From Odontesthes bonariensis (taxonomy: Eukaryota > Chordata > Actinopteri > Atheriniformes > Atherinopsidae), in contig NC_134524.1 in NCBI RefSeq assembly GCF_027942865.1, positions 5,833,036 to 5,897,035 on the forward strand: a stretch of 64,000 nt of DNA, in the 5' to 3' direction. Positions within the stretch are counted from its first letter, which is position 1. Each line of letters begins with the position of its first letter. The translations under genes and the position numbers were made by a program. Shown here piece after piece: positions 7,001 through 35,278 of the stretch. The notes beneath the pieces were generated by a model. The model did no database searches, was not told where the DNA came from, and saw nothing but the letters and a program-made list of their open reading frames with translations.

Positions 7001-10000
7001 CACGAGCTGTGGGTAGTGACCGAAAGAACGAGATCGCGAATACAAGCGGCCGAAATGAGTTTCCTCCGCAGGGTGTCTGGGCTCTCCCTTAGAGATAGGG
7101 TGAGAAGCTCGGTCATCCGGGAGGGGCTCGGAGTAGAACCGCTGCTCCTATGCATCGAGAGGAGTCAGATGAGGTGGCTCGGGCATCTGGTTACCAGCTC
7201 CTGGACGCCTCCCTGGTGAGGTGTTCCGGGCCTGTCCCACTGGGAGGAGGTCCCGAGGAAGACCCAGGACACGTTGGAGAGACTATGTCTCTCGGCTGGC
7301 CTGGGAACGCCTCGGGGTCCCCCCAGAAGAGCTGGAGGAAGTGGCCGGGGACAGGGACGTCTGGTCTTCTCTGCTTAGGCTGCTGCCCCCGCGACCCGAT
7401 CCCCGGAAAAGCGGAAGATGATGGATGGAGAATCAAAGCATATTTCTGTTGGTTTTCTGTGTGTGTTGGTCTTCTAACTGAATATTTTTATGTGAGCAGT
7501 TTCCATTAAGGCCACAGTGATCCTGCAGCCTAGCTGGGCTCAGATATACAGCGGTGAGACCGTCACTGCCAGATGTGAGATCCAGGGAGGTGGAGGAACT
7601 CAATGGATGTATGAATGGAGACGAAACGGGTTAAATATACCTCCAACATCCAGTGAATACAGGATCAGGAGAGTTATTGACAGTGGAGGATACAGCTGCC
7701 GGGGCAGAAAGGACAAGTTTAACTCAACACAGTGGAGTAATGTCATCACTGTAAATGTATCAGGTAAGTTAAAAATGTTAAAGTTACAGCTTTTTTAATC
7801 AAGGGTTGCAGACTTCTTTTCTATCTGTTCTGTCTCTCTCCATCAGATAAACCCCGGCCTGTCCTCACTGTGTCTCCATCATGGCTGAGTCCTGGAGCCT
7901 CAGTAACTCTGAGCTGTCAGGTTGAACATCCGTCTGCAGGATGGAGGTTCTACTGGTATAAAGCTGTTCCTGATCCGTCTGAAAGGTCTTACAGCTATGA
8001 GCTGCTGCCTGATAGCAACAACGGGACTGAACATGGTTCCTACATCATTCATGGACAGACACACACAGCAGGATATGTGTGTAGAGCTGGGAGAGGAGAC
8101 CCAGTGTATTACACTGATTACAGTCTCCCAGAGATTGTCTGGTCTGCAGGTCAGTTTGTTTCTGAAAGTGATGCTTTCACTTTAATTCAGCTATTCTTTT
8201 ATCAGAGACCTACACGATGTTTAAAACCAACACTCGTGTTGATGATAGCTACATTCATTTTCCACCAATGGAAGAACAGCAGAAATTAATAAGAAGAAAA
8301 CACTGATCAGGTGAAGCAGTGAAATACTGGAAATTCAAACGTTCACTTGTATGTCTGAAAGACGATCAGATTGAGTTTATCATTTAAAACACACTGAAGG
8401 TTTTTAAGGTGGAAATCACAGTTTGATCAGCTTGTGCAGGTCAGTTTGTTTCTGTCCTCTCAGTGAGCAGAAGGGATGCTTTCACTGTGAATAAATCACT
8501 TACTGTATCGGTTGCACTAACAGACAGTTAAAACACACTTTGTGTTGTGGTCAGGCAGATCAGCTTGTTGAAATGTGTGCGCTGATGTTCAGATGAAGAA
8601 CAAAATAAACCAAATGAATATCTGTAATGAAGCATTGGTTATGTTTCTCTCTGCTTTGGTGAAATCTCATCACATGTTTTTCAGATCTTCATCCAGCAGC
8701 GTCTCTCACAGTGAGTCCTGACAGAGTTCAACACTTCAGAGGTGATCCTGTGTCACTGAACTGTGAAGGAAAATCTGCTGAGTGGAGAGTGAGGAGGATT
8801 ACAGAAGCAGGAGACCTGTCACACTGCTCTGAGTCATTATGGGGGACAATGACTGGATCCTCATGTAACATAAAGAGTCTCTGGTCTGGTAATAATGTGT
8901 TCTGGTGTGAGTCTGGATCAGGAGAGTTCAGCAACGCAGTCAACATAACTGTGCAGAGTACGTTATGATAAATGTTCTTTTTCTTTCACTTTGTCTTGTA
9001 TTTAAGCATCACATCATTAACTGTACCTGAACATGTCATATCCATACAACATGAACTTTCTCGGTGAGCAGTTGTCTCTTGATCCTGCTGCGTAGTTGCT
9101 CTTAAGGTTCACTGGAAAGCACTTTGGTTTGCTGTTGTCTTACTTTACAGGAGAGCTTGAAGTTTTAATGTCACCTTTCACGATTCAGAACAACTACTGT
9201 GTGATTTATGACACTGTAGACAGTGTTATATCTGGTATATAAGCTGGTAACACACATACGGTTTGTAAATGCAGGAGATCAAATTTCAGCCAATTTAACT
9301 GTGTGAGTCAGCTTTGTCTAAATGTCTGCACCAGCTGATCTCTGACAGAAACCTAATGTCCTCTGACTGTGTTACAGAGAATAATTCTGGAGTTATCCTG
9401 GTGAGCCCCGTCCATCCTGTAACTGAGGGAGGTTCTGTCAGTCTGAGCTGCAGACGCAGAGGACAAAATACACTTTCCAATGTGTTTTTCTATCACAATG
9501 ACACACTTCTTCAAAGTGACAGCAGAGGGGAGCTGAACATCTCTGCAGTGTCACAGTCAGATGAAGGTTTCTACAAGTGTGAACACTCAGGGAACGTTTC
9601 ATCACAGAGCTGGATCTCAGTTAAAGGTGAGTAGAGTTCAATTATTTGATGCCTTTAAAACTATTTTCTGTTTGAGAATAACAAGCTAATCGTTACATTT
9701 CTGCTTTTGATTAAATCTTGAAGTCCATTTTCCAGGAATAATTGTCTGAAAAGCTTTATAGAAAAAAGTTTAGTTAATTTTTTAACTTTTTTTTTTTTAT
9801 TGAAGCTGTATCCAGACCTGAAGGCTCTTCGTTTCCTGTGCTGATGGTCGTTAGACCAATTATTGGACTCATATTCATCGTTCTCCTGCTCCTGCTGTGT
9901 CGCTGCAGACGATCCAAAGGTGAGAGCTTTTTCTTCTGGTATCAGATGTTTCATTCTTTCATTACTGAAGGACATCGATGCCTCATGAGGACATAAACTG

Positions 10001-15078: not shown

Positions 15079-16052
15079 TTATTCTGTTTCCGGTCTTCTG
15101 ATTCTGTTTGTTGCCGGACGAAAAGTCAGTGCCGCATAGTTCACATCGTCTGAGTCTGAGCTCTGAGAATAAGAACACTTTGCATTACATGGATGGATTT
15201 TTAGGAATAAAAAGAATCACACATGACTTGATAGAATTTGATATGGATGTCAATAGACAGCAGTTATTACCTCTGTCCTCCGTATGTTCTGTTCGAAGCG
15301 AACTAAGAGACAAACAACACATCTGGTCAGATAACTGACAATCATTCATTATTATTACACATTTCTTTAAAAAGCAGTAAGAATTATTATCTCTCTTTAG
15401 CAACTACCTGTCTGCAGCTTTTTGATTTTGACAACCAGACCAGCGATGACCATGAAGAGGAGAACACTGAGACCACCCAGAATCAGCTTTGTTAATTCAG
15501 GGGTCCCTTCTACAAGGCAGGCAGTCATGTTATTTTGACAGCTATCCAACAAAATCCATATTCCAAACATACAAAAATGAAAAAAATATTACCTTCAACC
15601 TCCAAATATGTTGCACTCGCCATCACCGGGTTTGATCCTAAGTAATATCCATAGAAATACAGCCCAGAGTCCGATAAATCCACGTGTTTGACTTTCAGAA
15701 AGAGAGTGGAGATGTTGGATCGCATTTCAAAACGGTCATTTTTAGATCCACAGCTTGAAGCAGGCGAAGAGGGATCGAACATGAAGGACATACAGCAAGG
15801 CTGGGTTCTGTTGACCAGCTTGAACCAGATGATCTGAGTCCGTGCACTGGAAAAATTGGAACACAGCAGCGTGACTTCATCACCAGACAGGACCTTCACA
15901 GTCTGAGACTCAGACCCTGAGACAAAGAGCCAACAAAGAGAGATGTCAATGAATGGTTTAAGATCCTGTGGAGTAATTCAGCGCTGGTACTTACTGAAGC
16001 TACAGAGACTTAAAGTGGTTATCAGGGCGAAGAGCATCAGTTTGAATTGCAT
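15079..16052 (-). CDS. Single V-type Ig-domain receptor with ITIM tail
   Basis: Five exons join in phase on the minus strand: 16052-15995 (signal peptide starting MQFKLMLFALITTLSLC), 15916-15593 (V domain), 15509-15408 (TM, ILGGLSVLLFMVIAGLVV then KIKK), 15302-15271, 15162-15079 (stop TAA 15081-15079). They total 600 nt, 199 residues plus stop. The V domain has VTLLCSNF around the B strand and IIWFKLVNR on the C strand; the tail has DVNYAALTF, an exact ITIM (V-N-Y-A-A-L). This matches a teleost single-V inhibitory family I recall as uncharacterised; no symbol is claimed. Oddity: the F-strand motif reads LYFYGYY, so the usual second cysteine is Tyr (codon 15653-15651). The gene sits tail-to-tail with the FCRL gene and is divergent from SLAM-type receptor A, about 0.5 kb away. 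Confidence 0.82.
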
Positions 16053-16577
16053 CGTGTCGCTGCAGTGTTGCTGTACACACCACAAAGTTATCTGCCTCTT
16101 TCTGATGCCTCTCTTGTTTGTGTCACTCTTTTTCAGCTGTCAACCAGCTCCGTTTCACTTCACTTTTCTAGTTAAGATGTATCTGATCAACGGCATCAGC
16201 TGATGGATTCTGCACCATCTATTTATAAAGGCTGATGTTCAGCTCCAGGTGCTTCCGGTGTCCACACTGACATGAAAAAGGAAGCGGACCCTCTTTGATT
16301 TGTATGGTTTTATGTGTCAGAACACAAAATAATCATATGCTCCTTTCCAAATACAACATCAGATGAACCACAACACATGCCATTAGGCATATTGTGTCAT
16401 GTCTCACATCTCACTGTAAATGCTCTTTGAGCATCACCTTTGGCAGAAACCTCCCCCACTCACCCCCTTCTCCCCGCAGTAGTACGTGCAAACCGTTTGC
16501 ACTTTTGACAGACCAGAAGAGGAAGCAGATTCAGTCTCTCACGGAGTCGCCCTTAATGTTTCGACTGCTGCTTCTTC

Positions 16578-19500
16578 ATGTACAGAGTTTTGCTCCTGGT
16601 GTGGGTCGCCCTCCACGGTACGTGCACTCTCATCTCATCTGCTTCAAAATCAACAGATTTGACCTGTTATCTAGAAGTTGCATTTTTACAAAAGACTTAT
16701 TAAAAGTTCAGTACTTAATCATGATGATGCAAGATGACGACATCAAAATAGCCTCAGAGAAACTTCTTCTTAAAACTAGAATCTACAGAAATCAGGCAAT
16801 GAAATTGAACAGTATATTGAACCTATTCCTCGATGCTATAAAGACTAAGATGTTCTCTTTTATTGATGAAAAACACATTATTAATTAGGACTCTTGTACG
16901 TGCATGCAAGCTGTTTGTGCATATTGTGACTCTGTATTTGCAAATGTTCTTTTATATTCTTTGACAAGCTGTTAATCATCCTCTCAGTTCAATTCACTTC
17001 CTGTTTGTCCTTTGGTGTTTCACAAAAGCTTGCAACAGACTGCTGCTCCTTATGAGATAGTTTACTGTACGTTATGATAAATCTATGTTCTTTTGACTGA
17101 AACAAGGCCGTGCCCTGCTCAGAGAGGTCAGCGTTGAAAATGCTGCTTCAGTTCTATTTACAGTTCACTGACAGAAGCTGTTATTTAGTATCACGTGGTA
17201 ACTGACTGTCGTTCTGTGAAAAACCTTGAGGCGGACTTTCACCGGAAACAGGAACACAATGACTACATGCTTTCTACCAGAAGCTGTAGCTTTACTGGCT
17301 AAAAGTGATGAGCACAGAGTGTTTCTGCATCGTTGTTACATCATGTTATAAATATCATAAATGTCTTCTTTAGTCCTCTTCAGTGATTTGGTGTTATCTG
17401 TTCTCTCGTGTCATTTAATTGAAACATTCAAACGTTGCATTATAGAACCATAGATACCAATTATATCATATTTTATATATATATTCTATCTCCCGTCATG
17501 TCAGATATCATGTCATCCACGATCTCATTCTATAATCTCCTGACTTTTGTCGCATTTTGTGTCATCTTATGGTAACAGTTATACTTACCATGATAGATCT
17601 TCTAGTGTTTTAACTTTGTTATGTTGTTGTTCGTATCTACACGATGATTGGAGACAAATTGGATCATGACCCTTCATTAAGACCATATTGTGGCTGCTGT
17701 GTTTCAGATGCGGAGGCCTCCACTGGAAAACGTGTCGTTCATAAAAGAGTCGGGGATACTGTGGAGTTTTCATCAAACTTACCCACTGAGGGGGTCACCT
17801 TGGCAACTTGGAAATATGGATCTACAGTGGTTGCAGACCATGATAGAGGTGTTTTTAAACAGGAGCTATTTCAGAGCAGATTAAAGTTCAACCCCACAAA
17901 CTTTAGTTTAACGCTGAGAGATCTGACTGTGGGAGATTCTGGTGATTTCAGTTTTCTCTCAGAGGCGAATGACCGACAGAGACAAACAGTCACCATCACC
18001 CTGCAAGTTCACGGTAAGACGCTGTTTCTTTGAGACATGCAAACCTAATAACTGTCATGAAAACACAAGTTTTTTTCTTCACAATGTGCTTGAATGATCT
18101 ATAGCTGAGCTGCAGCTCAGGAGGTGCAGAAGTAGGGATGGGAATTGATAAGATTTTTCCGATTCCAATTCCGTTTTGGATTCTGCTTAACGATTCGGTT
18201 CTTTATCGGTTCCCTTATCGATTCTCATTTGGAGAAAAAGGACAACAAACCGGTCGATCAGCATCAACTTTGTTTAGTTTAGAAGTAACACTAAGTCATG
18301 ACCTTACAAACCCAACAACGGTGAGGTCCACATTGGTCTATCATGGCCTGGGTAATTTAACTCTTCCTGCTCTGATGAAAGGAGAAGCTGGAGGTAGAGG
18401 TGAACTGGGGGTAGTACCACCAGCCTCTGGCTCTGAGCCAGTCAGGCTCTGTCTCTCATGATTTCATCTAAATGTAATGCCTGAGAAGGCATTCATTTAA
18501 CCTTAACCGTTACTAACAGCAGGTTTTACAATGAGGCAAATGGCGCTAACATGATAGGCAGTGTTAGTTAGTTAGTTACCTGCAGTGTTAGCCGAGGACA
18601 TGCTAACGTTGCTAACGTTGCTGGGTTCAGATTCACCGACGTTAATCATTCATTGATAGTTATTGCATGTTGGTAGTATTTCCTCCTTTTGGTGAAATAT
18701 TCACTTTGCAAGTTGCCCTGTTGTCGTCTATTTTAGGGATGTGTAATCAACAAGAACCGGTTTTCGATTCCCATCACTATGCAGAGGTCACCCTTTAATC
18801 ATCAACATCCCCCGTTTCACATAGCAAAGTGTCTTTGGGTAAAACATTGATCCCAGTGCGTTCTCACGTGTAATTCACTCTGGATAAAAGAGATGTTAGA
18901 AGAGTTCACCGTGCTGTACAAGTAGAAGAGATTCTACAACACTGCTCACCAGGAAATTATATTTCATTGTGTTTCTGTGTTCCTCAACAACCTTTATGTT
19001 CATAAAACTATTAACGGCAAAAAGCCTTTTAATATAATCTGTTTTATATACTTGCTCGAATGGTAAATACTGTAATTGTGTCCATGATAGCTCTTTAAAA
19101 AAAAAAAAAAAAAATACTGTATTCTGGCTAGTTTACTGCTGCATATTCTCTGTTTTACTGGCCTGGTTTTTATCTTTATGTATACTTGTTGCAGGTAAAA
19201 TGTCGAGGCTGATCGGTTACTCTCCTCTCTCTGCTGTCTCATTAGAGCCCATAACTGAGCATCCCGTCCTGACTTACAGCAGCTATCAAGCTTTGAATGG
19301 ATCCTGTGTAGTTTCGCTGAAGTGCAGCTCAGCTACTCACAGCAATGTCACCTGGAACTGGGCGGTGGGGAACCACACTTACAGCGGCTCCGAGCTGCAA
19401 CACACCATCAGGCCAGAGGATGGAGGCACCACGTTCACCTGCACAGCATCTAATTTTGTCAGTGAGAAGTCAGCATCCGAAACAGTGACATGCAGCAACA

Positions 19501-22500
19501 AATACACTGAGAAAGGTATGTTACAAGTGTTTTAGTTCCTTTATGAGCATCTCTTTGTTATTATCATCATAGTTTACGTGTATCAGTCAAGACAATATTT
19601 TCAATATAAGCAATTTGATTAATGATAGAGAAAGAAGTTTCAGCTTAATTCTGAGGATGTGAGATGAAATGAGTCTGTTAAATGGATAAATCTCATTAAA
19701 TAAGGGCACCGTAGGACTTGGATGACACAGATGAACACGCAGTGTTGGTCAAGTTACTTTTAAAAAGTAATTAGTTACAGTTACTAGTTACTGCTCCCAA
19801 AAAGTAATTGAGTTAGTAACTCAGTTACCACATTGTAAAAGTAATTAGTTACTCAGCAAAGTAACTGTGGCGTTATTTTTTACGTTCTATAACATCTTTA
19901 ACATCAAATATGCTTATATTAACTGATTGAAAAATAAAAACACTATATACAGTCATTTAGAACATTCGGTATTTTTTTTAACTCAATAGATGGCCCTAGG
20001 CATAACGTGCATGTTACATACACATTCTTGCCTTTTATCTCCACGAGTGAGAAGTAGTGCCGGTACTTCCAGTTAAAGAACGCTACCTTTGAACTTCCCT
20101 GGCTCGTCGCCATTGTCGCTGTCTTGTAGAATAGAATAGAATAATACTTCATTTATCCCCCAATGGGGGAAATTCAAATTCGTCAAGTAGCTCAACATTT
20201 TTTTAAATATTTACAATGATTGAATTAACAACAATAAAACAACAATAATAATTCTACTACGAACTAAATAATAATAAATGACTAAATGGCAAAATAAACA
20301 AATAAATAAAAATCAATCAATCAATTTGAGAAGAACTCAGCAGTCACTGTTAAAAAGCCTTATGGCTGTGGGAACAAAGTGTGTTTTTGTGTGTGTTTAG
20401 TCGTAGTCGTCAGCGCGTGCAGTGAGACAGAGTGAGCTGGGCGTCATCATCCCCACCCCTGCTCTCTCCAGGCAGCATGCAGCTGATGTGTAGCCTAAAG
20501 CCTACAACCAAATTGTAGTAACGCACCACTTTATATTCTCAACGATGGGAAAAGTAATTAATTAGATTACTCCGTTACTGGAAAAATAACGCCGTTAGTA
20601 ACGCCGTTATACTTAAACGCCGTTACTCCCAACACTGTGAACACTTGACTCTAAGGAGAGCTGTGCACCCAAGGGAATACTCATAAATAAGCATCTGTTA
20701 TTGCAGGCTCTAGCTCTTCTCTGGTCATACAGATTGTTAGGCTGTTCATTGGATTTCTGGTCATTCTACTGCTGGTCTTGCTCCTTCACTACACAAAGGC
20801 AAAGGGTGAGATGTTTTGTTGTAAGCTTTAGTAACTCAGTAAAACTGTGGCGTATAAAGTGCATTCGAACAAAATGTACAATAACACTCGTCTCTTTTTC
20901 ATTTTTTTTACAGCAATCTGCTGCAACAGGTAAGTTCAACTTTCTCTTCTTTCATCTCCAGAGGTCACCTGGAGAAAAAGCAAAGGCAGCGCCCCCTAGT
21001 GTCTGGTGCTGGTGGAGCGCAGTGGTGTTGAGACTTCCTGAAAACAGGGAAAAGAGCAGGAGGGATGCACTAAACACAGTCTGAGAGGCAGAGTAAGAGA
21101 TGCATTTTAAAGAGTGTTGATCAACTCAACAAACACGGACACGAAGGCCAGAGGAACAAATCTGTAATCACAAGTAAATGAGCAGAGTTTGACAGTGTGG
21201 GAAAGCAGAAGCGACTCAGAGAGTGGGAGAGCAGCGGGTGGAGTCAGCATACGCCCATGAACTGAAAACAAGGAGCTTCCCGGTTTTAATCTCAGCTGCG
21301 GCCTCTTTAGTGGGCTTTGAATGTTTTCCCTGTGCTGGGTTTCATGTGGGTGCTCTCCCACATTCACAGGAGTCAAATCATTGATGTTTCAGGCAGTATT
21401 GTATTCAAAGAATGTATACATTTTCGATGAAGAATACGAATTCATTATATACATTTTTGTAATGCCTCCACATGCATCTTTTTAGACTTTGTAGAAACCC
21501 CCCCTGCCTACGGGCCTGCACCGTAAGGTCTTTGGGCTCTCACAGGCCTACCCACTAAGCTATTTTCATGTTTAACTCATCACATATGCATGTGACTGTG
21601 CGTGTGTCCTTAGCCATACTAACAAGATGATATTCACTCAATAGCGTGGCGTAGACTTCACGGGGTACTAAATATGCCAAGAGACATTTTAAGACGTAGT
21701 CAGAGCCCAAGCTTAAATAGTGGAGGGAAATTTACTTAGGATGTACAATAGGCTACACACATTAAAAGTTGCACAATATGTTTGAATGAAAACACCAATG
21801 AACACAGTATTTCATCGATCGATGCCATTGTAGCATTTCAGATTACTATCATCACTACTAGCATCTTAAGAATAACTTGCTAGGCTACTTAGGGGCACTT
21901 TACACGGAAACGAAAACGGGTTAAAAAACGCAAAACCTTTTTGCGGATGCACTGTATCGTTTAGATGGTAACGGCGTTTTGGGGGGATGAAAACGCAAGA
22001 AAGTGAAACCGCCCTCCAGAGTGGAATTCTTGAATTTGGAAATTCTGTCGAGTGGCTGTTCCCATAAATCCGTGCAAATGTTCGTAATTACCCCCTGAAG
22101 AAGTTGTATTAATGTTTTCACATGTGTGGTCTATCTGCTCATTATACACTGTTTGTCAAGGTGTGGTGTAGAAGGGGAGGACACGGATGCGGACTTACAA
22201 AGAAAAGGGTGATTTATTAACAAAAAACAAAGTACAAAACAAAAGGCGCGGCAAAGCCGGATTCAAAATACTTGGCTTAATAAATACTTGGAAAAACAAA
22301 ACAAAACACTTAACATGGCATGGATAATAAATACTTAACTAGACCGGGCTCGTGGAACTTGGACGGCAAACATGACAATCAACCAACAACAACAAAGATC
22401 CGGCAAAACTGAAAGGGGAGGCAGGAAACTAAATAGGGAGTGAGAGTGATTGGGGAGTGAGTGCAGCTGAGGGAAAAAACACAGGTGAAGTGAGTGAAAC

Positions 22501-23279
22501 TGATAAACGGAGTGCAGGGAAACTAAAATGGCAAAAACTAAACATGGAGTGACACAAACATAACCTAGAACATGAAAACCAAAAACGTGAGTCCATGGGT
22601 GTGACACTGTTTCTCCAAAATCATTTTGATCGATGAAATACTGTGAAATACATTGGTGTTTTCATTCAAACATATTATAACAACCCTTAATGTGTAGGCC
22701 ATTGTTCATCATGAGTAAGGAATCCTTGCGCTGCGTGTATCAGTAATTGTTAACTCATCACATGCCGCGACCAGACTTCTCGGGACTGTGGGGGGGTCCG
22801 TCCGAACCCCCCGAACCCCCCCTGCCTACGGGCCTGCTCCTGTAACAGGATCCTGCCACCCTAAGCAGAGTAGAAATGTTTGGATGAAATCAGTTGAACA
22901 AAACTTTATTCATCCAAGAGGGAAATTAGATAATAAAAGAGGGAGGGAACAGATTTTCCTTACTGAACCTCTGCAAAAGCTTCCTTAATATACACAGTTT
23001 ATTAATCTGTCACTTTTACTCTACTAATAAACTGTGTTTCACCATTTCAGGCTCACGCAGTCCGAAACAGTCGAGAAGGACCAAAACCAACAGATTGTTT
23101 ACTCCTCTCTTCTACAAAGTAAGTCCTCCATCTTGTTTGAACTCCTTTCAATGGAAAAATTAAGCAGACTTTCACTGATGTATGTATGACGTTGCCTCAA
23201 TTCTCACTGACCTACAGGTGACGCTCAAGTCCATGAAACCCTCAGAGGCTCTGAAGATGCTGGACAAGGTGGAGTATGA
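16578..23279 (+). CDS. SLAM-type receptor A (V-C2 ectodomain, ITIM tail)
   Basis: Predicted type I leukocyte receptor. Exons in phase: 16578-16617 (MYRVLLLVWVALH), 17708-18013 (V-like), 19246-19515 (C2), 20707-20805 (TM), 20914-20929, 23051-23118, 23218-23279 (stop TGA 23277-23279). They total 861 nt, 286 residues. The V domain has no disulphide cysteines and the C2 domain has four, the pattern of SLAM-family domains. The tail carries QQIVYSSLLQ, an ITIM (I-V-Y-S-S-L), then AQVHETLRGSEDAG, which aligns with the FCRL tail here (VYSSLLHG and VYETVRGG). The last exon appears to have a one-base insertion: without an extra G in 23268-23269 the frame would continue VEYELVK to a good donor at 23290. 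Ectodomain exons are almost identical to those of receptor B. Which SLAM member it represents is not determined. Confidence 0.8.
18133..18779. mobile_element. hAT-type MITE in the V-C2 intron of SLAM-type receptor A
   Basis: Ends TAGGGATGGGAATTGATAAG (left) and TAGTGATGGGAATCGAAAAC (right, reverse complement). Flanked by 8-bp duplications TGCAGAAG (18125-18132) and TGCAGAGG (18780-18787), one mismatch. The matching intron of receptor B (near 31600) has the empty site GTGCAGAAGTCACCC. No transposase ORF. Confidence 0.82.
19740..20637. mobile_element. hAT-type MITE (CAGTGTTGG ends) with a nested LINE tail
   Basis: Left end CAGTGTTGGTCAAGTTAC, right end reverse complement CAGTGTTGGGAGTAACG. Flanking 8-bp duplications TGAACACG (19732-19739) and TGAACACT (20638-20645). 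The segment about 20127-20395 inside looks like the 3' end of a LINE in minus orientation ending in (TTCTA)n, so an older element carries a younger one. It lies between the C2 and TM exons of receptor A. Confidence 0.8.
21498..22837. repeat. Unclassified repeat block with inverted arms and direct repeats
   Basis: Inverted arms of about 75 bp at 21751-21825 and 22628-22702 share AATATGTTTGAATGAAAACA. Outside them are two direct repeats: CCCCCCCTGCCTACGGGCCT... (22 bp) at 21498 and 22816, and TTAACTCATCACAT at 21572 and 22750. A solo LTR sits inside. It looks like a degraded DNA element of unknown family in the tail intron of receptor A. Confidence 0.45.
22154..22606. mobile_element. Solo LTR with 5-bp target duplication
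   Basis: Begins TGTCAAGGTGTGG and ends GGGTGTGACA (TG...CA), flanked on both sides by CTGTT (22149-22153 and 22607-22611). At 453 bp with no internal coding region, it is the expected product of recombination between two LTRs. The 5-bp duplication is usual for Ty3/gypsy-like elements; the family is not proven. Confidence 0.78.
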
Positions 23280-23348
23280 GCTCGTTAAGGTGAGTGGACG
23301 AATTAAATATGTGAATTTTATTCTGTCTTTTGTTTGAGAGGAAAATAT

Positions 23349-23363
23349 ATATCTACATATATA

Positions 23364-23424
<61 letters not shown>
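23349..23424. repeat. (TA)n microsatellite
   Basis: A run of alternating TA, ending in TGTGTGTG, just downstream of the last recognised exon of receptor A. Confidence 0.9.
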
Positions 23425-23432
<8 letters not shown>

Positions 23433-23447
23433 ATTTCGTACTTTTAA

Positions 23448-24014
23448 CCCTTGTGCGGTCTTAACATTGTGTTTACTCCCCTTGTCCTATGGGTCAAAAA
23501 TGATTCGCCCTACCAAAGCCCCAAAATGAAGCAATTTAATTGAATTTTAAATCCAAAATCACCTGTTATTTATTATTCAACTCAATTCAATACATTTTTT
23601 ATCATGTATTTTTTGTTACACAATACAAAAATCACCAGTTTTCAGGTTGGTTTTTTAACCACAAACCAACTGTCAGTTGGACCAACAGTTTTCTTGTTTT
23701 CTCAGTTTTCTTTTACATAATAAAGGTTTATTATTGCTATTATATAAATGTAAAGAAATTACTTCTGAATTAATTATATTGAAAAGGAAAAAAACAGTGA
23801 ACTTTTTTCTGGTGTTTAAATTTTTTTATAATTCACGGGTCAAAAATGACCCATAAGACAATCTTTGTACCCTAATGGTGTACAGCCCACATGGAAACAT
23901 AAACAAAAATAAAGTATGACTTTTTCTAATGATGGGGTCCCTTCAGGAAAATTATTTTTTCTAAAGCTAAACATGGTAGTGGGTCACTTTTGACCCGCAA
24001 GACAACAGGAGGGT
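23448..24014 (+). mobile_element. TTAA-flanked (piggyBac-like) MITE, copy 1
   Basis: Starts CCCTTGTGCGGTC after TTAA (23444-23447) and ends GACAACAGGAGGG before TTTAA (24014-24018). The interior contains pairs of GGGTCAAAAATGAC/GTCATTTTTGACCC type sequence. A second full copy lies inverted at 33756-34382. No transposase. Confidence 0.75.
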
Positions 24015-24018
24015 TTAA

Positions 24019-25766
24019 TGGGAAATTATTGGTGCAGAAGATTTCCCTGAACAGGGTTGGCTGTGAGGTTAAAATATGTGTTGTTACCATGGGAACATGT
24101 CTTTGCAAGAGGAAGTGCCGGGGTGAATTGTGCCCACTGATACTGTGCAGCGGTGTGTGGGTTTGTTTCATCTCAGGCTGACAAAACAAGAGGCTCTAAA
24201 ATAATGGACCTTGGTTTTCTGTTGTTCTGTGACGGCTTATAACACGATTATTACATGTTGGCACGATTGATGATTAACTCGGAAAAAAAGAAAATTGGAG
24301 GAAAAGAAGGTACTGACAGGGTTAATGTTGCTTTAAAGCTTTGAAGAGTACATTTAATCATACATATGTTGTGATGGTTGTGTCAGTGAGAGGAAGCCAT
24401 TTTGATTTTCCGTGCCTCTACTCTCTGGCTCAGTTTGTTTTTATTCCACTCTGGTTTTATTCCAGGTCTGAAGATCAGAATAAGCGACAGATGAGAGCAG
24501 TGGTCGTCTGTAGTTGGTTTATGAGTAAAGGAGCTCAATGCCACAGGACCGAATGAGCTGAAACCCTGCATCAGATTCATCCTGCAAAGAGCAAAAACCC
24601 CTGTTTCTCATCAACTATAGTTTTTCTGTCCGCTCAACTCAACTGTATGAAAGTATCTTTGTTTTGCAGCTTTTATTAGCTTTAAGTGTTGCCGTTATGT
24701 GTAGAACACTGTCGCATTTTATATTTTTAATCTTTGTGCATGTAATTGTCCAATGAGGCATAATTTAATCTGTGGGACATTTCTGATTTGTTCAATAACT
24801 GAATGTTGACACACACATTGGTCTACTTGATTTGGTAACTTGGTGTGGTTGGAGCATTACTGTGGAATAAATCCTTCTCTTTTGAGGAGTCATGGCACGC
24901 CATCCAAACTGTCCGTTCTGTCTTGGTTCTGCTCTTTTAATGAATCACTGGTCAGCATCATTTACTGGTACTGTATCACTTCTTCTTTTGAAATGTCGGT
25001 AATCGTGTTCGTACATTTCAGGAAGGGGCTGCATAGAATACCTGTGTTGCTCAGAGTTTTCTGGTGAATTCCAAACAACTATTTTAACATTAGTTAGTCG
25101 CAAAAATTCTGCTTTGAATAGAAAATGACCTGAAAGGGATTCTCCAGGAAATAAATGCACTCAAATAACCCACCTGATAGCTTTCTTGGAATAAGAGGAA
25201 ATGAGCTAATATCTCAAACTTTCTGCGGATCAGTTCAGCCGAGTTCATGGAAACATGAAATCTCTGTATTCATGCTGATGTATACAAATGCTTCAAATGC
25301 TAACATGTTTCAGTGGGAGGTTCATCGTCATGTTTATCTGTTCTGCAGACGGGGGCAGGATGTTGTCAGCTCGTGAGCCACACATGTGGATCCTTTTTAA
25401 GGTATTCTTTCATGTCTAAACCAAACGACAGACTTTCGAACGTCTGAATATAGCATGCATGGGGTTTAAAATTAAAGTATGTACACGGTGTTGGGTGAGG
25501 AGGCAGATGAACCGGGGTCTGTCAACACCACCACAACCTTCCAGTTTTAAAGACTCTGTTGTTGTAAGACAGAGAGTCTCCTCCTCCTCCTCTCAGTGTT
25601 TGCAACACATGCGAGTTGAACGATTGGACATTTGCAATTAAATTAAAAACTAACCTCGGAGGCTCACTTTTCTTCTTCAGTAGCTCTTGTGTGATTCTGG
25701 AGACTGGCCATTCACATTTTCTTAACTATTTCAACCTCTCTGGTAATTATTTTCAATGTGGAGCCA
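24019..25766. other. Intergenic, nothing recognised
   Basis: Spacer between SLAM-type receptor A and later repeats. No exon with paired splice sites or domain signature was recognised on either strand. Confidence 0.35.
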
Positions 25767-26180
25767 CACTGGAAAAAATGCCCCTCCAAAAATAAGTAAA
25801 AAAACAACAAATAAAAGACGTTTTTGCTTGAAATAAGCAAAAAAAATCTGCCAATGGAACTTGTGAAAATCGGCTTGTCAAGATTTCTTGAAATAAGATG
25901 TGATATTTGGGACTTTTGAGATAAAAGTTATCTTGAAATTAGCTTAAAAACCTCTTCAAATGTAAAAAAAAAGCTTGTTTCATATGATATGTGACTCAAA
26001 ATAATATGTTTTCAAGACTTTTTCATTTAACAAGATATTCCAGATGTATTGTCTTCAAACAAGTCCCTATATCTGGCTGAAATAGTACTTGTTAGGCAGT
26101 TGTGTCATATTAAGTGTAATGAGATATTTTGACTAGAAATGAGACAAATATACTAGGTAAGACTTTGATTTTTTCCAGTG
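25767..26180. mobile_element. CACTGGAAAAAAT-ended MITE, copy 1
   Basis: Ends CACTGGAAAAAATG and, in reverse complement, CACTGGAAAAAATC. Full-length partner at 37245-37662. Flanked by CA on both sides; the partner copy is flanked by TA, which suggests a 2-bp target duplication of the Tc1/mariner type. Confidence 0.72.
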
Positions 26181-27084
26181 CACGATGCGCACATGCAGAC
26201 TGATGCAGGCCATGGGAACAAAACCGAGTATCTTCTGGCCCTATTTGGTAACCATGCTAATGAAATTAAGCTAACTGGAAATCACATGCTTCCTAAATTT
26301 GGCCGTGTGACAGGGATCACAGTTGCATTGATTCCCATTTGGGGTCTATTTTTTTCATTAGTTGCTCTAAAATGTTGGTTTTTGATTGAACTCGTGGAAC
26401 ACTTTACACTTCAAAACAATGCACTAATTTAGAGGTGATGCAGTTTGAAATAAGTTTTCCTTGAAATGGCTTTGTTCCCTATTCTGTTGTACGCTGCTGG
26501 TTCTGACCGCGGTGACCTTAAGCTTCATGCATCACGATTCTAAGAAAATGTGACACCTCAAAGGAGGTGCGAAATTGAGGAGAAGTAACACAAGCATGTT
26601 TGTCAAACGATTCTGAAAAGTGTCCGTTGGCTGCTTTTAAGAGTTGAGGCATCAACCTGCTTTGTAAAGTGAGTGTGTGAACAGACCTTGCAGTTTATTA
26701 TAGATCAGAGGTTGCAGGCAGTGCATGGACCACCTCGGCTGGGACAACTCACCGGAAGGTGCAGACAGTCCAGGTCGTTTAACTACCAGTAATATGTCTC
26801 TTTCTTCCTGTGCACACGGTCTACGAGGTGTGTGAAGCTACCATCTGCCACTGCTGGCTGAGGGCAGCAGTGTGCACTATGATATGATTTCACAAGATCA
26901 GTCGCCAATTCTGATTATGGTACTCTAAATGGAGCATATTTTCTTGAAAAACTAGCAAAACAACCCTTTTACACCCAACTATGCTTTCATATCAGTGTTA
27001 TCTATAAGGTCAACAGGTCTAATACTCATATACTCAACAACTATGGTGTCCTTCATGCTCATCTCATTACACTGATTAATACGG
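26181..27084. other. Intergenic, nothing recognised
   Basis: No coding exon or known repeat recognised. Confidence 0.35.
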
Positions 27085-27374
27085 GGCTGCACGGTGGTTG
27101 CCTCCTCACACCAAGAGGGTTTGTGGTTTGCATATTTTCACTTCCATGATTTCTTTCCTGGTACTCTGACTTCCTCCCACTGCCCACAAACATGCATGCC
27201 AGGTTAAATGGTGACTCTGAATCGATCCTAGGAGTGAGCGTGCATGTTTGTTTGTCTCTGTGTGGCCCTGTGATGGACTGGCGACCTGTCCGGGGTGCAC
27301 CCACTCACCCACTGACAGCTGGGACAAGCTCCAGACCCTGAATTGGATTAAGCAGCTGTAGAAAATGGATGACC
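27085..27374 (+). repeat. Dispersed fish repeat, SINE-like, copy 2
   Basis: The longest of the four copies: head GGGGCTGCACGGTGGTTGCC, middle CACAAACATGCATGCCAGGT and GGCGACCTGTCCGGGGTG, tail AGCTGTAGAAAATGGATG. The motif order matches a repeat common in teleost genomes. Confidence 0.65.
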
Positions 27375-30012
27375 TGATTGATTGTTATTAATAGCAGGGC
27401 TACTTTATCACAGCATTATCTGTGATGATCTTTGCAGAAGACACAGAAATAGTCTCTGTATGTGGTGAGCACTTCCTTTTCTGTTCTTTTCTGTGTGCAC
27501 GAGTTCTGCTTAAGGTGCTGGTGATTTCAGGCCTTATCGTGCAGATGCTGATCAATGCAATCCAGTGCAAATTTCTAACGCAGGGTTGAAAAGTAGTTCT
27601 AATCTGCTGTTTTCTAAGGTCACTGTCAGCTGTGCTGGTTAGCGTTCCTTCTTCGTACAGGACTAATTTCGACCAGTTGTGGTGTCATGCAAAGACAATG
27701 CTTGCACGACAGACATCTGAAACTCAGTGAGAATAACTCTGACGGCGACTTGTTTTACAGCATGTGAAAGTATGCTTGTGACCTTTTCTTTGTCTCCATC
27801 TCATCAGTGTTCAATGCTTTAAGACCAGCTGGCGTTTTCATGCATATACAAACACACTCTTGACGTACCCGTCCCTTACATTGTTGACAATGCTGTGATG
27901 AGCAAGGCACCAGGATGTTACTCTAGATCCCAGGCTTTATATAGAATTGACCCACAGCACCAGGCTTTAAACCTGAAGTGAACACAGGAGGACCTCGGGG
28001 CCCTCAAACGCCAAGCTGAAAACTGGTTGCCACACACAGCTGATTTAACTTGTAGAGTCTCTCTCTGATTCGCTGCTCAGCGTGTTCAATGAGTGCATGA
28101 GAAGGCAGGCCTCAGGTACCACAGCAGGCTAACAGCTAACTTAAAGTGTCTCTTATCATTTATCATCGTCATTTCTGCAAAGCAAACAACACTTCCATGA
28201 CAGCATTTCAAGTGCTGCGACATGGCTTTTGTTGCGATTGAGAATTTCCCATGATGTCCTTTCCCTCTGAGTAGAATAAAACTGCATCGTGGAGTGAAGA
28301 AACTGAAAACCGTCTTTGTGATGATCTTACAGAAAGATGGAGGCAGCTGCTCCTTTGCCGCATTAGTCAAGCAGAAAGCTAGCTGTGTGTTAGCCTGCAG
28401 GTGCCTCGTCAAACCTTAAGTAGAGCTCTTTCCTGCCGATGGACACTTGTTATCTCCCAGGAAGTCTCTGAATAACTTCCAGGTTGTGAACATTGTCCTC
28501 TCGGCCATCTCACGAGCTGAATGGGCTGCAAATGCACACTGACGAAAGGAGGACAGACCGTTGAGCTGAAGAGAAACAGTGTGTCTTTCTTTCTTTGTGT
28601 TTGGGCCCCAACATGCACAGGCTGATCCAGCGTTCATTTACCAAGTAACAGCTTGCTTAAGTAGCTAAGCTAACACACAACATTACCATTTAGTAGAATA
28701 ACTTTCATTTAAGTACTCCCAAGATGAGTTGGAAGTTGCTTTGAGTGATATTTTTGTTTGCCCAGATGCTGATTACATCAGGAGACACAGCAGGGGGCCA
28801 CTTGTTGCCACTAGTTCTTTGTGTCAGTTTGACATTTTAAGTGTTTTTTTGCTCCACAAATCCACATGGAGACTCTCCAGCTTCACCCTCTTCTCCAAAT
28901 GTGGTCATTTCTGGCTGTTAAATAGCCAAAAGATGACAACAGCAAACTGTTGAGCTCAGCATTTCAAATACCAGTGCCCAAACCAAAGGGTTAATCATGG
29001 CCGACATGTGCACTAAATGATCACAGTCGATAATATTCACAGCACTCCAGAGTGCATCCGGAGCGCCGATAGTTTCTGCTTTTCCACTCTACTCCAGTTC
29101 TTCCCAGTAACACAGTGTTGCCTCTACATTTCAGTGTTTCACATACAATGAGTCAACAATCCTGTTTTCTAACTCTGAACCACATAAACCCGAATGCTTG
29201 TTGAATCGAATCATGTAATTCAGAGCCATTCATTTGCCTGATTTTAAACAGACTCAAAGCAACAGTAACAGTAACATTAACATTAATTCAGAGAAATCTG
29301 CCTGATTAGTGTTCATGCAGTGCAGTTGCACCACAGTAGCAGCAGCTTTCTGTCTCTGAGTCATGGTTAAACCCTCACTGATCACACCTCTTCCTCTTCT
29401 TTGAATCTAGCCTCCTCACAGCAATTACTAAAGCACAACTAGCAATATCAGGCTCTAGATTTATACTTTAGTATACTAAGTGTACTTTTGAAGATATGTA
29501 TCCCCCCCACCGCATAATTAGTATCTGATGGATGTCCTTCCTGAGGAAATTGTATTAGATATAGGCTCTTATCTCATATATTGACATTTAGCTTAGTTTA
29601 GCTTGCTGTGGAAAATATTTTGTACTGTTGACTTAATTCAGAGGCTGACATCAGGTGAATGTCAGCTTATTTGAAATAGTCACAGAAGGCATTCTTGAAC
29701 ATTCATATAGCAGGTCACTTGTTATTCTTATCACCATAACAACTAACTTTGCCTTTGCAACTCTTCTCTCCTTAACTGTGATCCAGCAGCTTAACCTGTG
29801 CAAAGATCTTGTGTTCAACGTTGATTTTGAACAGTTTCCTCGAAGCAGCTGCTTTTATTTTGCTGTATACCAGGCCGACTGAGACAGCTTCTTCTTTCTG
29901 CCTCCTCACTGACAAAGCCTCCCCCACCCTCTAACCGACTCTTTTTTTCTGAGCCGACTTGTCAAAGCGGAGACCAGAGGAGGAAACAGACACTGTTCCT
30001 CTCCCCACAGAG
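27375..30012. other. Intergenic / 5' flank of SLAM-type receptor B
   Basis: No exon recognised. The last few hundred bases presumably contain the receptor B promoter; no TATA box was placed with confidence. Confidence 0.35.
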
Positions 30013-33000
30013 ATGGTAGGTGGTTGCCTTTCTCGTCTCAGCTGCTTCTTTGCATATGGTGTCGGGCTGCTTCTCGTGGTCTGCATTCAGGGTACGTACA
30101 CTTTTCTGCTTCAATCCTTTACAATTCTGACTAATACTTGAGTCAAATTGATCGGTGCCTGGATAGAGGCTGTGCCAGAACACAACTTTCTGGATATGTG
30201 TTGTCAGCTCAGGAAATGACACGTCTTCTTTGGAAGAGGCCAACAGCCTTCTTTTTGTGCGTGTTTTTGCAAATCCTGCTGCACCTGCTCGGCTAAGAAG
30301 GCAGCTCAGGAATGGTTTATCCCTTTTCTGTTTATGTCACTTCCTGCTTTTTTTCTTTAAATTTGTTGATCATGTTTGCTGATGCACGCACGATAGATTA
30401 TAGCTTGCAGAATAATTGCAGAAGTGGGGGGAATGAATGTTTAAAACTTTTCTACGGTACCATTGGGCTGCAGACACGAGCTAAAAGTTTTTCTCAGTGC
30501 ACAGTCGCTTCCTTTTGTGGGACAGACATGAAAGCATAGAGACCTTGCAGCAGTAGAACTGAGCGAAAGGGATGACAGTGATGACAACTTTTACTTGACC
30601 TTTTTCCACTGAGTCCGCGGTTTCCTTGCAGTTTCTCTTGAAATGATGCAGCTTCGTCCACCACAAAGAAAATCGTCACTGCTCCATCATCGATAACTCA
30701 TTTTTGAAGCTGCTAATCTAGAGAAGGGAAGTTTAGTCACCCTGTGGGTTCAGTCTGCCTTCCCCACACACAGGAGCAACACTGAGCCTCTGATATTCGA
30801 CGTCCAAAGTTCAGGTTCACTTGACCTTCTGATGATAATCTGTTGTGTTTATGTAATTATGTGCATTTTTCTAATGATCAGAACTGTGATGGAAAGTCAA
30901 AACATGACAATGCTCTGTCATTGTTTGTTGTCATTGCTGTTTCTTTGTTTGGTAATATCCTGTTTACCACAGATATCATGTCATCCACGATCTCATTCTA
31001 TAATCTCCTGACTTTTGTCGCATTTTGTGTCATTTTATGTTAACAATTATACTTAGCATGATAGATCTTCTAGTGTTTTAACTTTGTTATGTTGTTGTTC
31101 GTATCTACACAATGATTGGAGACAAATTGGATCATGACCCTTCATTAAGACCATATTGTGGCTGCTGTGTTTCAGATGCGGAGGCCTCCACTGGAAAACG
31201 TGTCGTTCATAAAAGAGTCGGGGATACTGAGGAGTTTTCATCAAACTTACCCACTGAAGGGGTCACCGCGGCAACTTGGAAATATGGATCTACAGTGGTT
31301 GCAGACCATGATAGAGGTGTTTCTAAAAAGGAGCTATTTCAGAGCAGATTAGAGTTCAACCCCACAAACTTCAGTTTAACGCTGAGAGATCTGACTGTGG
31401 GAGATTCTGGTGATTTCAGTTTTCTCTCAGAGGCGAATGACCGACAGAGACCAACAGTCACCATCACCCTGCAAGTTCACGGTAAGACGCTGTTTCTTTG
31501 AGACATGCAAACCTAATAACTGTCATGAAAACACAAGTTTTTTTCTTCACAATGTGCTTAAATGATCTATAGCTGAGCTGCAGCTCAGGAGGTGCAGAAG
31601 TCACCCTTTAATCATCAACATCCCCCGTTTCACATAGCAAAGTGTCTTTGGGTAAAACACTGATCCCAGTGCATGTGTAATTCACTCTGGATAAAAGAGA
31701 TGTTAGAAGAGTTCATCGTGCTGTACAAGTAGAAGAGATTCCACAACACTGCTCACCAGGAAATGATGTTTTTCATCTCTATGTGTTAAAGTGAGTTAAT
31801 GTTGGAGGCTGTCATGTTATGTTTGGTACGGAGGCTAATGATGCCACTCTTTAATTGGATATAATTGGATGCAAAACTGTGCAAAAGAAAATGAACATAT
31901 CACTTCATATTTGAGATGCTGCTTCCCTGCAGCTGTTTCCTCTCTTTGTGTAACAATTCAAGGAAAAGTTTCCCCGTAGTGTGTTACATTATGAAATTAT
32001 TTATTTCCATCTTAATTTTAAATCTCTCTCCTGAACAACCTTTACGTTTATAAAACCATTAACAGCAAAAAGCTTTGTAATATAATCTGTTTTCTATGGT
32101 AAATACTGTAAATTGTGTCCATAACGTCCCTATTTTCTTTCGTGGTGGTAATGTCTCGTGCATTTTCTTTTGGTTGCGTTTTGTCACAAAATAAGAAACT
32201 TTCTCAAGTTTGTTTTTGGTCATGTTGAGTTTTGTGTATTTTGAATTCTCAGCACAACCTCATTCTTTGGTTTATTCAGAGTTGTCGTCTCTGAGGTTTA
32301 GATGGCAACTGGAAATCATGATTAACTGTATTCTGGCTAGTTTACTGCTGCATATTCTGTTTTACTGGCCTGGTTTTTATCTTTATGTATACTAGTTGCA
32401 GGTAAAATGTCGAGGCTGATCGGTTACTCTCCTCTCTGCTGTCTCATTAGAGCCCATAACTGAGCATCCCGTCCTGACTTACAGCAGCTATCAAGCTTTG
32501 AATGGATCCTGTGTAGTTTCGCTGAAGTGCAGCTCAGCTACTCACAGCAATGTCACCTGGAGCTGGGCGGTGGGGAACCACACTTACAGCGGCTCCGAGC
32601 TGCAACACACCATCAGGCCAGAGGATGGAGGCACCACGTTCACCTGCACAGCATCTAATTTTGTCAGTGAGAAGTCAGCATCCAAAGCAGTGACATGCAG
32701 CAACAAATACACTGACAAAGGTATGTTAATAGAATGTCCATAAGTTATTCATTCAGTGTTACTGAGTTCTGATCATGGCTTTATTGATGCTGTGAGATAA
32801 CAGCACACAGCCTTCCCACTCCGAGCCTAATGGCTCGGAGTGGGAAGGCGCAACATAAGGCAACAGGTTTGGGTAGGTGAGGGTGTAGTCACACAAAACC
32901 AGGAAACGTATCAACAATTAAAGAAAGTATTTATTTACAAATGGTAACACAGGGAACAACGAGGACTACAGTGGCACCAAAGAAAATGAAAAGAACACAG

Positions 33001-35278
33001 CCCCACACCCGTTTTACAGGTGCTGAGCACCCAAAAAGTACAGCGGGTGGTGCTCACTCTTACCTAGGGTTTCTCACAAAAGGTAAACTTACGTGGATGT
33101 ATAATATAATATGTAGACCCTAGGGTATCTTACCTATCCTCGAAGTCCCTGTGCACCCAACAAAAGAATTAACCAGAGACAAAAAAGAACTAACTAGCGC
33201 TCTGCCACAGCTCACAACGCAACACCACCCATCACAGGAAACAAACAAGGGACTATTTAAAGGGGACTGGCTGATTGAAGATCTGGATCAGGTGTGGTTG
33301 AATGATTGGATAATTGAAACCAGGTGTGCACATCTGTGAAGTGAGAGAATTGAAACAGGAGGGGGAGACAAAACAGCAACACAAACCAACACCACAAAAC
33401 AGAACACAACACAATGCATACCACAAGACGTACAACATACATACATAAAAGACATACAGAACACTGTACCTAACAAGCCCATCATTAGAAAAAGTCAGAC
33501 TTTATTTTTGTTTATGTTTCCATGTGGGCTGTACACCACTAGGGTACAAAGATTGTCTTATGGGTCATTTTTGACCCGTGAATTATAAAAACATTTAAAC
33601 AGCAGAAAAAAGTTCACTGTTTTTTTCCCTTTCAATATAATTTATGTTAACAATTATACTTAGCATGATAGATCTTCTAGTGTTTTAACGTTGTTATGTT
33701 GTTGTTCGTATTTACATTATGATTGGAGACAAATTGGATCATGACCCTTCATTAACCCTCCTGTTGTCTTGCGTGTCAAAAGTGACATGTTTAGCTGTAG
33801 AAAAAATACCTTAAACTATCTTTTTCCAACTTGAAATGTTATGACTTTTCCTAAAGGGAGTCCATCATTAGAAAAAGTCACACTTTATTTTTGTTTATGT
33901 TTCCATGTGGGCTGTACACCACTAGGGTACAAAGATTGTCTTATGGGTCATTTTTGACCCGTGAATTATAAAAACATTTAAACAGCAGAAAAAAGTTCAC
34001 TGTTTTTTCCCTTTCAATATAATTAATTCAGAAGTAATTACTTCACATTTATATAACAGCAATAATAAACCTTTATTATGTAGAAGAAAACTGAGAAAAC
34101 AAGAAAACTGTTGGTCCAACTGACAGTTGGTTTGTGGTAAAACAAAAAAAAAGTGTAATCCTGAAAACTGGTGATTGTTTTTTGTATTGTGTAAGAAAAA
34201 ATACATGATAAAAAATGTATTGAATTGAGTTGAATAGATAAATAACAGGTGGTTTCATCATACAAAATAGATTTTGGATTTAAAATTCAATTAAGTTGCT
34301 TTATTTTGGGGCTTTGGCAGGGCGGCTCATTTTTGACCCATAGGACAAGGGGGGTAAACACAATGTTAAGACCGCACAAGGGTTAGGACTACGTCTCCTC
34401 TTCATTTAATATGAACTGTTGGTAGAATTAACAGGCACCGCTGTTTGCAGGTGAATTTAGATCCGTGTTGATCCTCAGCGTGGCTGGAGCATGTTTGATG
34501 GCCATCCTCGTGTTAACTTGTGTCGTGGTGCGAATTTGTTGCTGTAAAAAAAGGCATGAAGGTAAGAGACTTCTGAATGCGATCACACATATCAACACCA
34601 GAGTCGTGTCTTAGGGTGCATAGCTCTGACTTCTTCACTCGATGTTTGGTGGTGTCGCCAGGCAGTGACTCGAACGACCTCACGGTGTATGCTGACATCT
34701 CAGATGTTGCAGTGGAAAGCGTAAGTACACTCATATGTACCCTGCCCCTTGCACCTAACCCTTTCTCACTGAGCCTCTCTTTTGATGTATTCACATGGAC
34801 ATTTCCAGAGGACTCCATCCACCCTGAAGCCTTGCTCGCTGTATGAAACCATTGAAAATTGCACAGGCTCAGATGCACCTATTACACCTGCGGTAAGACC
34901 AAAACCTTGTTTTATTCTGTCAATAATTCACCTTTCTCTCTTTCTACTTATGAAGGCGGCAACAGTTTTATGGTTGCAGACTGGTTTCCTGACCTTAATA
35001 AGGTTAATTCCTAAGAAAAGGTCCTTTCCTTCAAGCAAGAAACTTTTGCATTACTCTTCATGCATTTGCCTGAAAACCTCAAAGTTTATCATTTACCGAC
35101 CGGATTCTCTTTCTGGGATTCTGAATTTCTGGGTTGAAGTTTTGTGTTCTAAATCAATCACTGCTGTTTTCTTTTTGCCTGCTTTTTGTCGCCCGTTTAG
35201 CCCCAGACCGTGTACGACAGGATCCAGCTCAGTCGTCTCAGGAAGGCGTCGGTGTCCCCGTACCAAGAGGTTTCCTAG
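30013..35278 (+). CDS. SLAM-type receptor B (V-C2 ectodomain, ITSM tail)
   Basis: Exons in phase: 30013-30091 (signal peptide, VGLLLVVCIQ), 31176-31481 (V-like, no disulphide Cys), 32451-32720 (C2, four Cys), 34451-34561 (TM, SVAGACLMAILVLTCVVV), 34662-34720, 34809-34892, 35201-35278 (stop TAG 35276-35278). They total 987 nt, 328 residues. The tail has two exact ITSMs (T-x-Y-x-x-V/I), TVYADI and TVYDRI, plus SLYETI and SPYQEV which fit the ITIM consensus. In mammals ITSMs recruit SAP-type SH2 adaptors. PolyA signal AATAAA at 35361. V and C2 exons differ from those of receptor A at about 10 residues out of 192, but signal peptide, TM and tail are unrelated. The intron between C2 and TM is full of repeats. 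Confidence 0.87.
32810..32849. repeat. Perfect 18-bp stem hairpin
   Basis: GCCTTCCCACTCCGAGCC (32810-32827) is followed by TAAT and then its exact reverse complement (32832-32849). It is 90 bp downstream of the receptor B C2 exon. No U-run follows, so it is not a simple terminator. Confidence 0.85.
32850..33478. repeat. Probable LTR-like or other dispersed repeat, unclassified
   Basis: A-rich segment with TATTTATTTACAAATGG and ACTATTTAAAGGGGAC, resembling the minus orientation of fish LTRs, but I could not find matching target duplications. Called only as likely repeat. Confidence 0.3.
33479..33643 (-). mobile_element. Partial TTAA-MITE copy
   Basis: Nearly identical to 33864-34025 inside the adjacent full copy (shared GGGTACAAAGATTGTCTTAT and TCATTTTTGACCCGTGAATT). 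Only this part is present. Confidence 0.8.
33644..33755 (+). repeat. Copied fragment of receptor B intron 1
   Basis: Matches about 31036-31147 just upstream of the receptor B V exon (shared AACAATTATACTTAGCATGA and GGAGACAAATTGGATCATGA) with only a few differences. It lies between two copies of a TTAA MITE and stops at TTAA, where the second MITE begins. Confidence 0.82.
33756..34382 (-). mobile_element. TTAA-flanked (piggyBac-like) MITE, copy 2
   Basis: Starts CCCTCCTGTTGTC right after TTAA (33752-33755) and ends GACCGCACAAGGG before TTAG. It is the inverted relative of the copy at 23448-24014. Confidence 0.78.

Follow-up and report, generated by a model that had tools for sequence, protein, structure and literature searches.

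What kind of event leaves two neighbouring receptor genes with almost the same extracellular exons and unlike signalling tails? The question is raised by a 64,000-nucleotide stretch of the Odontesthes bonariensis genome (NCBI RefSeq assembly GCF_027942865.1, contig NC_134524.1, positions 5,833,036 to 5,897,035 of the forward strand). This whole stretch is the window, and positions below are counted from its first letter. Two genes in the window, A and B, encode putative SLAM-type receptors. By their gene models both have an immunoglobulin (Ig) V domain, then an Ig C2 domain and a single transmembrane (TM) segment, which is the SLAM/CD2 plan. An earlier sequence-only reading had proposed a local copy or conversion of the V-C2 cassette alone. 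Our preferred answer, to which we give a probability of about two in three, is that A and B go back to an old tandem duplication and that gene conversion recently homogenised their V-C2 exons.

Self-BLAST of the window identified a segment of A that recurs in B, in the same orientation and roughly 13.5 kb away (Table 1). Together with global alignment, it showed that the segment consists of the V exon, the C2 exon and adjoining stretches of intron. Mismatches occupy 34 of 1298 aligned columns. Intron 2 of A carries a 646-bp insert that breaks up the segment. Elsewhere, B stretches of 257 and 202 bp face only about 16 and 30 bp in A. By end-to-end alignment, the 5' edge lies 206 bp upstream of the V exon and the 3' edge 8–9 bp past C2. 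Both edges are inside introns, and beyond them similarity drops straight to background. The cassette coordinates and sharp edges proposed from the sequence were recovered by both alignment methods. Identity reaching far past the cassette, named beforehand as grounds for abandoning the proposal, was looked for by alignment; similarity ends at both edges. The predicted proteins differ at 10 of 192 V and C2 residues (six in V, four in C2), matching the earlier estimate of about ten.

Mismatches were also counted for each part of the segment. They number 9/306 in the V exon, 4/270 in C2, 5/205 in the intron-1 stub and 0/9 at the start of intron 3. For intron 2 the counts are 1/121 (left), 7/179 (after the A insert), 8/93 (middle) and 1/125 (right). 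Each exon range counted here is displaced by a single base relative to the true exon, with no mismatch on the bases concerned. Two intron ranges overlap by about nine columns at the duplicated target site of the insert; 34/1298 is the non-overlapping set.

Are A and B related outside this segment? The sequence-only reading had taken their signal peptides to be unrelated. That proved wrong. A strict local alignment that takes in the 5' untranslated region (UTR), the signal exon and the first part of intron 1 has a score of 121, and 92 of its 128 aligned bases agree (72%). No score this high was reached by 1000 first-order Markov resamplings (maximum 90). The same was true for 958 overlapping 261-bp tiles drawn from both strands of the rest of the window (maximum 86 with the A query, 80 with the B query). 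Taken by itself, the signal exon region reaches 102, where the best of 1000 resamplings reaches 83. A more permissive scoring also ranked the 5' region higher than all 60 of its resamplings, but it produced long alignments without meaning in other places and gave way to the stricter scoring with controls. The 5' relation suggests that the two genes arose by an old tandem duplication and that their ectodomains have diverged far less than the rest.

The exon models use GT/AG splice sites, with start codons and the last A exon inferred. Both models are open from signal peptide to stop. Exon order is common to the two genes, and phase-1 joints follow exons 1 to 4 in each. By contrast with the 5' ends, no relation was detectable between the TM exons (242/300 resamplings attain the alignment score) or the tail regions (98/300), as the sequence-only reading had claimed. 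Nothing above chance was found in the upstream flank (210/300), in intron 1 beyond the shared stub (45/300) or in intron 3 (127/300 with the B side ending at 33470; 44/200 with the full intron). The 3' flank score was attained by 8/300 resamplings, and the A side there is an AT repeat.

If the V-C2 block had been inserted beside a resident ectodomain, a second V/C2 set might remain. With five domain queries, tblastn found none in introns 1 and 3 and gene-specific intron 2 (best E 0.44). DNA alignment, which covered six of these seven stretches, found none either; the strongest case, leaving aside a flank fragment described below, was equalled by 11 of 200 resamplings. One candidate V remnant in B intron 1 (DAASSTTKKIV / DAEASTGKRVV) was rejected as chance. 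Its tblastn E is 1.1, the best alignment of V-exon DNA to that intron lies elsewhere and 73/200 resamplings attain that score. That no remnant was found in introns 1 and 3 favours replacement over insertion. Of "copy or conversion", conversion is the better half because of the weak 5' kinship, the common order and phase of the first four exons and the failure to find a second V/C2 set. The earlier proposal fits, and is supported in part. A third SLAM-like gene in the window, only 32% identical to A in C2, also speaks for conversion.

Divergence is not spread evenly over the segment: the middle of intron 2 is more diverged than the remainder (8/93 versus 27/1215; Fisher p 0.002). A scan along the segment gives p 0.002 at widths of 60 and 100 columns, p 0.014 at 150 and p 0.066 at 250. 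This suggests separate conversion tracts around V and around C2. We propose the following course of events. An old tandem duplication would have produced A and B, and traces of it remain in the 5' UTR, the signal exon and the layout of exons. The TM and tail exons would then have diverged past recognition or been exchanged. Recent conversion between the direct copies, possibly in more than one tract, would have made V, C2 and the adjoining introns near-identical. The outcome would be two receptors, presumably displayed at the cell surface, with nearly identical binding faces. B would signal through ITSM and ITIM (immunoreceptor tyrosine-based switch and inhibitory motif) tyrosines of the SAP/EAT-2 or SHP type. 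A would signal through a short tail, which may be weakly inhibitory or may need a partner.

Several points weigh against this account. The middle of intron 2 was picked out by inspection before testing. Without gap-side columns (31/1274 mismatches), the scan weakens to p 0.037, 0.033 and 0.074 for 60, 100 and 150 columns. The longest mismatch-free run in the segment is not unusual (p 0.29). The old relation outside the segment spans only some 140 bp, with none in the TM and tail exons. Two copies in one genome cannot part conversion from duplication plus later replacement. The exon joins of both genes are predictions from DNA. Exons are no less diverged than introns (13/576 versus 22/732 mismatches; p 0.49), and 11 nonsynonymous against two synonymous differences are no departure from neutrality (p 0.75). 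Both results mean that there is no sign of selection keeping a shared face. Finally, V19E introduces a charge into a predicted strand of B and could make the fold less stable.

A single segmental duplication, by template switching or with transposon assistance, could instead have placed the V-C2 block in the adjacent gene, replacing or joining its own ectodomain, with no later conversion. We judge this unlikely, though it deserves a serious hearing. It would give sharp edges on both sides, and the evidence for several tracts is just moderate. Furthermore, a third, 115-bp piece of the 5' flank sits in a repeat cluster in B intron 3, and so this DNA was copied locally at least once more. Against such a duplication stand the kinship of exon 1 and the 5' UTR, the failure to find a displaced V/C2 set and the raised divergence of mid-intron 2. 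A recent duplication of the whole gene, after which unequal crossing over with another, third gene exchanged the TM and tail of one copy, would account for the agreement of the first exons in layout and phase, and SLAM-like genes are clustered in the window. However, it should have left exon 1 and intron 1 near-identical, when in fact the exon 1 region is at 72% and intron 1 past the stub shows nothing above chance; we consider it very improbable. An assembly artefact, with one ectodomain (for example, a haplotype copy) placed twice in error, has to be weighed with data from one assembly. We give it hardly any credence: the copies differ by the insert and its empty site, by two longer B stretches and by 34 substitutions, and each can be read as an open frame with splice sites.

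Local DNA has been unstable in other ways. The insert in A intron 2, which we take to be hAT-like, is flanked by an 8–9 bp direct repeat with one mismatch, and B has the empty site. The fragment at 33641-33755 has 4/115 differences from B and 8/115 from A. TTAA occurs near both ends of the surrounding repeat cluster, and the repeated elements are presumably piggyBac-like. The fragment was tried as a root for the direction of conversion. Of the five sites within its span at which A and B differ, it matches B at four and neither at one; it does not root the pair, because it is possibly derived from B. Another near-identical pair occurs in the window. Two Ig exons of nearby FcR-like genes, at 3100-3363 and 7500-7763 (bounds set by splice signals), share 248 of 263 aligned bases, and their similarity stops close to the splice sites. 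The third fragment and the FcR-like pair suggest that exon-sized exchanges occurred more than once in this locus. Purifying selection could also cause the FcR-like similarity.

We next consider what the shared face and unlike tails might do. In the AlphaFold2 V model, substitutions V19E, L32A, K60E and Q93P sit in predicted strands, which we take to be B, C, D and G. The six V-domain changes might alter folding or binding. Positive selection on V and C2 was considered and rejected, the nonsynonymous excess not being significant; neither constraint nor diversifying selection is demonstrable for these exons. Binding of a common ligand is plausible. A and B may see the same ligand yet signal differently, which goes beyond what sequence can prove.

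In the B tail, all four tyrosines lie in ITIM or ITSM form, and 1 of 20000 shuffled tails equals this, which makes the tail strongly SLAM-like. They comprise the two ITSMs (consensus TxYxx[VI]) of the sequence-only reading (TVYADI, TVYDRI), which are thus above chance, and two ITIM-form motifs that it had not listed (SLYETI, SPYQEV). By analogy with SLAM receptors, as described in excerpts of PMC4718992, the B tail probably recruits SAP/EAT-2 or SHP phosphatases. The A tail has one ITIM-form motif and no ITSM. The string reported earlier (IVYSSL) is present, but 11% of shuffled tails also contain an ITIM (p 0.11), and the motif makes A a weakly supported candidate for an inhibitory receptor. 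In the last exon region of A (23218-23290), a second open frame ending DKVEYELVK reaches a GTGAGT donor, and the true end of the tail is unsure for this reason. The predicted TM segment of A has an arginine in its outer part (VIQIVRLFIGFLV), as in adaptor-pairing receptors. By comparison with known activating receptors, this residue could pair with an adaptor. Given the chance-level ITIM, the uncertain last exon and the TM arginine, A could signal with either sign.

Several moderate lines together support the SLAM-type label: the cysteine pattern, the ITSMs of B, the C2 model and the neighbourhood. In the SLAM/CD2 family, V lacks the canonical disulphide and C2 has two extra cysteines. Here, V has no cysteines and C2 has four. 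Models of both domains have Ig-type strands, with predicted local distance difference test (pLDDT) values of 72 for V and 83 for C2. The closest structural match of the C2 model is NTB-A/SLAMF6; comparison of the V fold did not distinguish SLAM from other IgV domains. Searched against PDB, the V-C2 query matched CD33 best (E 0.00045), then a CD48/CD2 chimera (0.035), CD2 (0.041) and CD58 (0.094). Profile matches of C2 were CEA (8.1e-7), CEACAM1 (0.0017) and SLAMF6 (0.0035). A Pfam search of A and B gave no family above its cut-off.

In human gene order, the SLAM locus adjoins VANGL2. Strabismus/VANGL open reading frames lie at 55.8-63.3 kb of the window (E down to 2.9e-107), VANGL1 and VANGL2 not being told apart. 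The third SLAM-like gene is at 43572-45930 on the minus strand. Its V domain is apparently split across two exons, unlike those of A and B. A V-set exon at 15528-15977 (minus; E 1.4e-8) is divergent from gene A, and also matches Pfam Receptor_2B4 barely over the cut-off (22.2 versus 21). A reverse-transcriptase frame at 47011-48807 (RVT_1, E 3.2e-38) marks a retroelement. A 664-bp near-palindrome at 61893-62556 (inverted self-match, 89.5% identity) adjoins a VANGL reading frame.

Table 1. Positions of the shared segment, the two gene models and associated elements in the window.
Feature	Position	Strand	Basis or remarks
A copy of shared V-C2 segment, with insert in intron 2	17502..19523	+	self-BLAST, global alignment
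B copy of shared V-C2 segment	30970..32728	+	self-BLAST, global alignment
5' end of A: UTR, signal exon and first part of intron 1; old relation to B	16510..16647	+	score 121, 92/128
5' end of B: UTR, signal exon and first part of intron 1; relation to A	29971..30114	+	score 121, 92/128
A exon 1, signal peptide MYRVLLLVWVALH	16578..16617	+	spliced model, donor GTACGTGC, phase 1; start codon inferred
A V-type Ig exon, no cysteines	17708..18013	+	exon model; Ig-type strands in AlphaFold2 model, pLDDT 72
A C2-type Ig exon, four cysteines	19246..19515	+	exon model
A TM exon, Arg at or in outer part	20707..20805	+	exon model, hydropathy 2.88
A short tail exon	20914..20929	+	splice model only
A tail exon with IVYSSL	23051..23118	+	exon model; motif at chance level (p 0.11)
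A final coding exon of the model, uncertain	23218..23279	+	exon model and sequence
B exon 1, signal peptide	30013..30091	+	exon model
B V-type Ig exon	31176..31481	+	exon model
B C2-type Ig exon	32451..32720	+	exon model
B TM exon	34451..34561	+	exon model
B tail, three exons: TVYADI, SLYETI, TVYDRI, SPYQEV, stop	34662..35278	+	exon model
Insert resembling a transposon, A intron 2; inverted ends that nearly match (AGGGATGGGAAT / AGTGATGGGAAT)	18134..18779	+	646 bp
Partial third copy of the 5' flank of the segment, in B intron 3 repeat cluster	33641..33755	+	115 bp

How do A and B compare with known systems? Very similar ectodomains joined to different signalling tails, as found here from residue counts, gene models and alignments, are the mark of paired receptors. 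Mammalian SLAM members have ectodomains strongly different from each other. Excerpts of PMC4718992 describe a family with IgV, IgC2, TM and tail, often with ITSMs, and with clustered genes; SLAMF8 and 9 are without ITSMs. A and B share this plan and clustering, and their C2 model is nearest SLAMF6, but those excerpts describe no converted pair. For gene conversion in fish SLAM genes, there was nothing among the matches listed, within partial coverage of the literature. In the main text of PMC4810170, the terms "gene conversion" and "paired" are both absent.

Closer parallels lie elsewhere. According to excerpts of PMC5701461, the ectodomains of Siglec-11 and Siglec-16, whose genes are about 9 kb apart, were homogenised by conversion over about 2 kb in fragmented tracts, and the converted exons are under relaxed constraint. 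That pair resembles A and B, as we read them, in its converted extracellular part, fragmented tracts, relaxed constraint and differing signalling. It differs in being primate, in its glycan ligands and in conversion that extends upstream of the gene, whereas exon 1 is excluded from the A/B segment. For CD300A and CD300C, the available part of PMC12447643 reports ectodomain likeness kept by conversion in several lineages while signalling diverged. This is similar to A and B, although CD300 is a primate family and not SLAM-type. CEACAM1 and the CEACAMs with immunoreceptor tyrosine-based activation motifs (ITAMs) have ligand-binding N domains kept alike by conversion or recombination, and CEACAM1 is homophilic (excerpts of PMC2832619). 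As proposed for A and B, a binding domain is homogenised between members of differing signalling (ITIM versus ITAM); unlike them, the opposing motif is an ITAM or ITAM-like, and the hosts are mammals. Ectodomain-limited conversion has hence been described in three mammalian families (Siglec, CD300 and CEACAM), and A and B would be a case at a SLAM-type locus in a fish.

It is a long shot, prompted by the fact that most SLAM receptors bind themselves, that A and B are each other's ligand. Conversion would then keep the matched halves of one adhesive pair alike. If so, one cell contact would be read as different signals by A-bearing and B-bearing cells. Receptors kept alike to bind each other, with no third-party ligand, would add a new reason why ectodomains undergo conversion. 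Because SLAM receptors often act as their own ligands, A and B would let one ask cleanly whether conversion maintains binding to a common outside ligand or recognition of one receptor by the other. Our preferred reading would carry ectodomain-limited conversion of paired receptors beyond the mammalian families in which it is known, to a SLAM-type locus of a fish.

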